Assembly: GCA_026197095.1 (NCBI GenBank)
Contig: JAPHTF010000080.1
Location: forward strand, 1-32,518
DNA length: 32,518 nt
Direction of reading: 5' to 3'
Origin: Gammaproteobacteria bacterium
GTDB lineage: Bacteria > Pseudomonadota > Gammaproteobacteria > UBA6429 > Thiohalophilaceae
The notes beneath the pieces were generated by a model, which was given only the letters and a program-made list of their open reading frames with translations, did no database searches and was not told where the DNA came from. Made by a program: the position numbers and the translations under genes. Shown one piece after another: positions 1,581 to 3,791 of this stretch. Within the stretch, counting starts at the first letter, position 1. Every line of letters starts with the position of its first letter.

Positions 1581-3485
<1,905 letters not shown>

Positions 3486-3563
3486 TTATTTTTAAATCTA
3501 AATTCAAATCGGACGACCGCGCTTAATCTAGTTACTAAAGACAGTGATTAGATCAGCTTCTCT

Positions 3564-3791
3564 CGCCTTTCCTACGCAAGTACTAACTAGGTCAGGTTCA
3601 ATGGGTAATTCTCAGCCTTTTAATTCCCCTCACCCCAGCCCTCTCCCGAAATGGGAGAGGAGGAGTTTGCCCCCTCATCCTAACCTTCAACTAGCCAATC
3701 GACTAAGCTGTCCCAGCTAAGTCGCTGGTTATCCCGCTAGGGGAGAAGGAACAAAATGTTGAAGCCTAAGGAATATTTGGCACCCCCGGCG
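3564..3791 (-). promoter_or_regulatory. TPP riboswitch (THI element) with a greatly enlarged P3 arm
   Basis: On the minus strand the canonical blocks occur in order: GGGGGTGCC (3787-3779), GGCTGAGA (3617-3610), ATTACCC, TTGAACCTGACC, and GCGTAGG (3577-3571). A short P1 can form between CGCC (3791-3788) and GGCG (3567-3564). These are the hallmark sequences of the thiamine pyrophosphate aptamer, and the element sits in the thiC leader, about 93 bases before the ATG. The distance between GGTGCC and GGCTGAGA is 161 bases, whereas the P3 loop of the E. coli thiC element is about a dozen. The mode of control (terminator or start-site occlusion) is not evident; no U-tailed hairpin is seen between 3563 and 3471. 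Confidence 0.93.
3626..3749. repeat. tandem palindromic repeat units inside the riboswitch P3 arm
   Basis: Two similar direct units occur in plus orientation: CCCCTCACCCCAGCCCTC (3626-3643) and CCCCTCATCCTAACCTTC (3671-3688), identical at 14 of 18 positions. The first runs into an 8-bp hairpin, CCTCTCCC / GGGAGAGG (3640-3660). The second unit's arm CCTTC pairs with GAAGG (3745-3749), and between them sits another hairpin, CGACTAAGCTG / CAGCTAAGTCG (3700-3724, one mismatch), bounded by CTAGC and GCTAG. Flanking arms at 3679-3691 and 3759-3771 can also pair at 12 of 14 positions. Similar 'CCCCTCACCC..CCCTCTCCC' palindromes are dispersed in many bacterial genomes, so these look like inserted repeat elements. 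Confidence 0.7.

Follow-up and report, generated by a model that had tools for sequence, protein, structure and literature searches.

Can the sensing domain of a riboswitch take in dispersed repeats, and what becomes of the switch if it does? Both questions are raised by positions 3564–3791 of a 32,518-nt stretch of gammaproteobacterial DNA (hereafter the window), which a sequence-only reading had described as a TPP riboswitch with palindromic repeat units filling its P3 arm. The present analysis adds that the element is encoded on the minus strand and precedes thiC, that the Rfam fit uses a false, repeat-derived 5' half, that the same repeat occupies the same arm in four genera, and that the second repeat unit is a composite found elsewhere in the genus. 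We consider it rather probable that this is a thiC TPP riboswitch, apparently still workable and acting on translation, whose P3 arm was invaded once by a REP-like palindrome that was later lost or replaced in some lineages.

All of the conserved aptamer blocks that had been claimed for this locus were recovered: GGGGTGC, CTGAGA, ACCC, ACCTGA and GCGTAGG follow one another in order, and 3564–3791 corresponds exactly to the span from P1 to P1 (Table 1). Complementary strands for P1, P2, P4 and P5 are present by sequence, although both covariance models used here fit a decoy 5' half instead. Read from the sequence, P2 pairs GGGT with ACCC, P3 opens with GCC (3781–3779) and closes with GGC, and the GAACCTGA...GCGTAGG portion is complete. 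Counted on the minus strand, the gap between GGTGCC and GGCTGAGA is indeed 161 nt. The downstream gene was called as thiC by NCBIfam model NF006763.1 (1066.9 bits against a cut-off of 650), and its start (3470) lies 93 nt past the aptamer P1, which places the riboswitch upstream of a thiamin gene. Promoter and terminator scans returned no sites. On motifs and context, the element is classed as a predicted TPP riboswitch despite its sub-cut-off Rfam score.

Table 1. Features of the riboswitch locus, in coordinates of the source contig.
Feature	Position	Strand	Basis
Predicted TPP riboswitch aptamer including both P1 strands; P3 arm enlarged	3564–3791	−	Motifs, covariance hits, sequence reading
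P1 helix, CGCC with GGCG	3788–3791 with 3564–3567	−	Read from sequence
True aptamer 5' half CGCCGGGGGTGCC (5' strands of P1, P2, P3)	3779–3791	−	Sequence reading
Aptamer 3' half, GGCTGAGA ... ACCC ... GAACCTGA ... GCGTAGG	3571–3617	−	Sequence and covariance alignments
P3-arm insert, 161 nt, between GGTGCC (3784–3779) and GGCTGAGA (3617–3610)	3618–3778	−	
REP-A, the proximal REP-like unit (ends approximate), with hairpin CCTCTCCC/GGGAGAGG and tail CTGGGGTGAGGGG	3626–3664	−	
Decoy GGGGTG in repeat tail, taken for the aptamer 5' half by covariance models	3631–3636	−	RF00059 and family model
Distal composite unit (ends approximate), a REP-A hairpin interrupted by a palindrome	3671–3750	−	Similar composites in genus
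42-nt palindrome AACCAGCGACTTAGC...GGCTAGTT nested in distal unit	3689–3730	−	
5' switching strand CGACCGC, overlapping P1	3789–3795	−	Leader comparison
Proposed anti-P1 strand GCGGTCG, upstream of thiC Shine-Dalgarno	3514–3520	−	Leader comparison
Probable thiC Shine-Dalgarno AGGA	3479–3482	−	Read from sequence
thiC, phosphomethylpyrimidine synthase, 629 aa, controlled gene	1581–3470	−	NCBIfam NF006763.1

The repeats proposed to fill the arm were found again in full. A repeat search recovered the two direct units with 14 of 18 identical positions (3626–3643 and 3671–3688); the 8-bp hairpin lies at 3640–3647 and 3653–3660, and the palindrome nested in the second unit is evident from the sequence as well as from its copies. 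REP-A has the general form CCCTCTCCC-loop-GGGAGAGGG-CTRGGGTGAGGG, and in the distal unit the palindrome interrupts the REP-A hairpin right after GGGA. Within its own genome (G000, a draft of 3.12 Mb in 201 contigs), the 161-nt insert has nine further matches, seven of them with E of 4.3e-4 or better; the two at E 2.8–5.3 were disregarded. The matches elsewhere in this genome cover about 32–53 nt at 82–89% identity. The exact hairpin pattern CTCTCCCN{2,8}GGGAGAG occurs at three sites in the 3.12 Mb, the window's included, and the reversed-pattern control at none. REP-A is thus a short palindrome dispersed through the genome, as REP elements are, with three exact hairpin sites and, besides the window's own, at least seven confident matches in this draft; the abstract of one REP study gives a usual number of more than 100 copies per genome (PMC2817692). 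Because this and many related genomes are drafts, all such repeat counts are lower bounds.

Copies beyond this genome tell the same story. The riboswitch query matched 34 of 58 genomes (own included) at E<=0.01, and among the matches listed most fall on its REP-like part. The REP-A form was seen at 39 places among the loci examined, riboswitch copies and some near-copies counted; at the 32 places outside riboswitches, flank likeness averages about 6 of 14 or less, with a few near-copies. Six other copies of the 42-nt palindrome were found. Three belong to the own genome; G003, G004 and G005 have a single copy each, in which the same GGGAT/AACC junction comes after a CTCCC hairpin arm. The distal stretch (query 3671–3757) matched four of eight genus genomes, own included, at 80–92% identity. 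A single-copy insert was rejected as a description, as its units recur in the own genome and the genus. At a contig end of G000 (C135; L003 1–700), a BIME-like mosaic combines REP-like hairpins with the 42-nt palindrome, which is present twice. The search for a mobile enzyme serving REP-A covered the Y1_Tnp genes of the genome and their flanks: two such transposase genes (IS200/RAYT-like; L113, L114) are present, up to 1.5 kb on each side contains no REP-A hairpin-plus-tail unit, apart from isolated 9-mer matches that each have one mismatch, and neither gene could be linked to the repeat.

The low Rfam score is explained by the insert itself. RF00059 does hit the window (40.3–40.4 bits, E about 1–2e-6), but below the Rfam cut-off of 54.3, which is a filing rule and no structural feature; at the gathering threshold, the window yields no Rfam family at all. 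The score falls short because the model pairs the decoy GGGGTG of the repeat and not the true 5' half, and the Rfam alignment was rejected as a picture of the true aptamer for the same reason. Among the other family genomes that have TPP hits, 27 in number, 11 also score under the RF00059 cut-off. Side matches to mir-320 and Clostridiales-2 (E 0.38 and 4.2) were dismissed as chance. Twelve relatives whose arms are ordinary (eight from the family and four from the class) served to build a family covariance model. For G021, G007, G032 and G025 this model bridges the insert and joins the true halves, leaving out 63–66 nt, and it does so for G009 with 25 nt left out; in G036, G015, G008 and the window it picks a false 5' half. 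A covariance fit spanning the insert was accordingly obtained in relatives, but in the window both models take the decoy. A repeat that offers a decoy half can drop a riboswitch under standard cut-offs. The REP-A tail CTRGGGGTGAGG (window 3626–3640, minus strand; also the riboswitch arms of L015 and L018) resembles the TPP 5' half GCTAGGGGTGCC. Elsewhere in the aptamer, the stretch from ACCC to ACCTGA exceeds the model by 4–18 nt in G025, G008, G032, G036 and G007, and is longest in G008.

How widely is the arrangement distributed? In a family sample of 40 genomes, 28 had a TPP hit and the P3 arm could be read in every one: seven arms contain REP-A (four genera), two a GTAG-type repeat, and 19 are ordinary. 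The REP-A carriers are G000 and G007 (g1), G032 and G036 (g16), G025 and G008 (g2), and G021 (g15). Ordinary arms of 20–21 nt occur in G001, from the window's genus, and in G022, from the genus of G032 and G036. The idea that dispersed repeats had landed in the P3 loop is borne out, the units being multi-copy, their surroundings differing elsewhere and the arms of G001 and G022 being ordinary; the insert is neither single-copy nor an ordinary arm shared by all relatives. Since G025, assembled in three contigs, also has the repeat in P3, the arrangement is no artefact of the window's assembly alone.

Other repeats have used the same arm. In G009 (g3) and G015 (g9), P3 holds the different, GTAG-type repeat TAGGGTGGGCA..GCCCACC, whose pattern matches on both strands, riboswitch copies included, number 23 in G009, three in G015, one each in G032 and G036, and none in G000. 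A second GTAG-type unit stands directly past the aptamer of G009, ahead of the anti-P1 strand (L104 1625–1644). G008 carries an extra 51-nt unit inside its P3 repeat; a query with this unit matched seven places in G008 (riboswitch included), 22 in G025, three in G021 and one in G023, and among five other copies inspected the flanks of L213 and L217 are alike and the remaining ones differ. Further repeats have evidently landed inside the P3 arm both in the window's genome and in G008.

Outside the family, long arms of this kind were not encountered among the arms that could be measured. Across the class, the pattern GGTGAGGGGN{4,24}GCTGAGA hit nine of 369 genomes (five matches for the reversed-pattern control), and only the family members G000 and G008 among these nine have a TPP riboswitch by motif; the pattern is narrow, the carrier G021 in the same sample being missed. 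Arms outside the family were taken from the best 80 thiC loci of a longer list, for 40 of which the motif search gave a length; L115, being identical with the G015 contig and arm, was dropped, as were the misreads L155 and L187. The remaining 37 distances from GGGG to CTGAGA range from 16 to 52 nt, against 172 in the window by the same measure, and none of these 37 arms appeared repeat-like by eye.

Whether REP-A entered the arm once or several times is judged from position, flanks and phylogeny. Its orientation is identical in all seven carriers, the hairpin starts 28–32 nt into the arm and the tail stops 8–14 nt before CTGAGA. Likeness of the 5' flanks (11 nt beyond the repeat, offsets up to 4) was set against that among 31 distinct dispersed copies: it averaged 6.52 for the seven carriers versus 4.80, with none of 5000 draws as high, and 7.17 versus 4.81 with one carrier per genus, with two of 5000 as high. 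An earlier flank comparison gave 8.1 versus 6.0 of 14. One old insertion is favoured because orientation, spacing and outside flanks agree among the carriers. On a ThiC tree of 16 rows (six of them fragments), the carriers need six changes (five to six in bootstraps), well-supported branches force at least three, and no more changes are needed by 429 of 500 shuffled labellings, the carrier label being unclustered; a wider ThiC tree likewise mixes carriers with non-carriers. This scatter requires repeated losses, replacements or insertions, and it leaves position, orientation and flanks to carry the case for a single origin. Arm content turns over fast, as G032, with REP-A, and G009, with the GTAG-type repeat, are well-supported sisters.

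The same absence of clustering would also suit independent insertions, in which REP-A would have reached the P3 loop, as a favoured or tolerated site, several times in the same orientation. Other repeats did reach P3 separately, namely the GTAG-type repeat in G009 and G015, the 51-nt unit in G008 and the palindrome in G000. The shared orientation, the nearly constant spacing and the similar outside flanks speak against such a history, which we regard as possible but fairly unlikely. On balance, we lean towards a single old insertion, which would have been followed by repeated loss or replacement.

Has the insert spoiled the sensor? The motifs GGGGGTGC, CTGAGA, ACCC, ACCTGA, GCGTAGG and P1 GGCG are kept in every one of the 14 leaders of this type, including that of the window. 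CGACCGC is exact in 11 of them (altered in G025, G008 and G021) and GCGGTCG in 13 (CCGGTCG in G011). In ViennaRNA predictions, the native arm beats the shuffled mean for P2, P3 and P4 pairing in nine of nine cases, narrowly in G032. Singly, five of the nine outdo all but six or fewer of 100 shuffles, the numbers of shuffles as good as the native arm being 0 (G036), 4 (G008), 5 (G009), 5 (G025), 6 (G000), 18 (G015), 20 (G032), 27 (G021) and 31 (G007). For the window, predicted P3 base pairing is 0.06, and the stability of the insert is unremarkable (z −1.2; 26 of 200 shuffles as good). By our own reading, its minimum-energy fold includes P2 and P3 but lacks P1. Absolute pairing is low in several leaders, including the ordinary one of G023, which makes ViennaRNA without ligand a weak judge. 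The low P3 pairing and the preference of two covariance models for the decoy would fit a damaged switch, with decoy and long arm hindering folding and thiC left constitutive or off. The intact core motifs and P1/anti-P1 strands of the window, together with the retention of core motifs by carriers in four genera, make such damage unlikely.

From the observed anatomy, repeat identity, distribution and intact core motifs, the following course of events is proposed for a riboswitch that apparently still works. A REP-like dispersed palindrome would have entered P3, most likely once, before at least four genera of the family split, and would then have been repeatedly lost or replaced among the descendants; in the window's lineage, a second REP-like unit and its nested palindrome would have been added. 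P3 may tolerate such repeats because they can fold on themselves without disturbing P1, P2, P4, P5 or the binding loops. The 3564–3791 RNA is expected, from its sequence, to bind TPP, and control is probably translational: without TPP, CGACCGC would pair with GCGGTCG and the thiC Shine-Dalgarno would be open, and with TPP, P1 would form and the freed GCGGTCG would help to close it. When the anti-P1 strand was barred from pairing, Shine-Dalgarno openness rose in 13 of 14 leaders (the exception being G015, 0.64 to 0.61), and start-codon openness fell in five (G032, G025, G008, G015 and G011). This constraint was run without a shuffled control, and keeping any bases from pairing will generally free the bases opposite them; given this and the five falling start codons, we infer rather than observe a translational switch.

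A more far-reaching and improbable possibility is that P3 is a retained and repeatedly used harbour for mobile palindromes and that the tail of REP-A, in which CTRGGGGTG reproduces the aptamer 5' half, was exapted as a competing P2 strand; a mobile repeat would then have been drawn into a ligand sensor, tuning the switch, and kept across genera. Ordinary lineage-specific growth of P3, with convergent G/C-rich hairpins posing as repeats, can appeal to other TPP riboswitches with long P3 arms (PMC12632268, in part) and is very improbable, as it is already contradicted by the own-genome matches, the dispersed copies with differing flanks and the composite unit copied within the genus. The locus thereby offers a concrete, testable instance of interspersed repeats enlarging an arm at the periphery of a natural aptamer, and both carriers and insert-free near relatives are available.

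In its core motifs, helices, controlled gene and leader position, the element resembles TPP riboswitches of the thiC leader type (RF00059); unlike the usual members, it has a 161-nt, repeat-filled P3 and a sub-cut-off score owing to the decoy 5' half. The literature searched, among matches listed by title or abstract opening and with subscription papers mostly outside its coverage, contained no interspersed repeat inside an aptamer. The word riboswitch is absent from the main text of the GTAG REP paper (PMC3733652), excerpts of PMC3088659, PMC2267715, PMC1590033 and PMC4596501 hold nothing on repeats inside aptamers, and among the papers listed PMC2873474 alone names both TPP riboswitch and REP. 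In a review seen in excerpt, MITE-made riboswitches are deemed conceivable (PMC10969869), and BIMEs are described in part of another paper as acting as attenuators (PMC2965389). REP-A resembles REP/GTAG repeats and BIMEs, as portrayed in passages of two studies, in being a 20–40-bp palindrome found in dimers and mosaics (PMC3733652, PMC2817692); unlike them, it is assigned to no published family and linked to no transposase. The repeat of G009 and G015 begins with GTAG, as GTAG REPs do (PMC3733652, in excerpt).

Large P3 arms are known elsewhere, as had been noted for this locus: the thiC riboswitch of Klebsiella pneumoniae, studied in a reporter, has a P3 likewise lengthened by extra nucleotides. 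That arm differs in having two short insertions (nt 21–37 and 42–48), a repeat origin being unstated in the parts of the paper available (PMC12632268). The insert also resembles the variable insertions of riboswitches, which are long and nonconserved, occupy tolerant sites and form stem-loops that fold apart from the core; in the excerpted account, no interspersed repeat is named as their source, unlike in the window (PMC2258182). Like the window, a pneumococcal leader combines an interspersed repeat with riboswitch control in one transcript, as passages on the BOX element describe; there, BOX lies between two T-box riboswitches, whereas in the window the repeat lies inside a single aptamer (PMC3049150).
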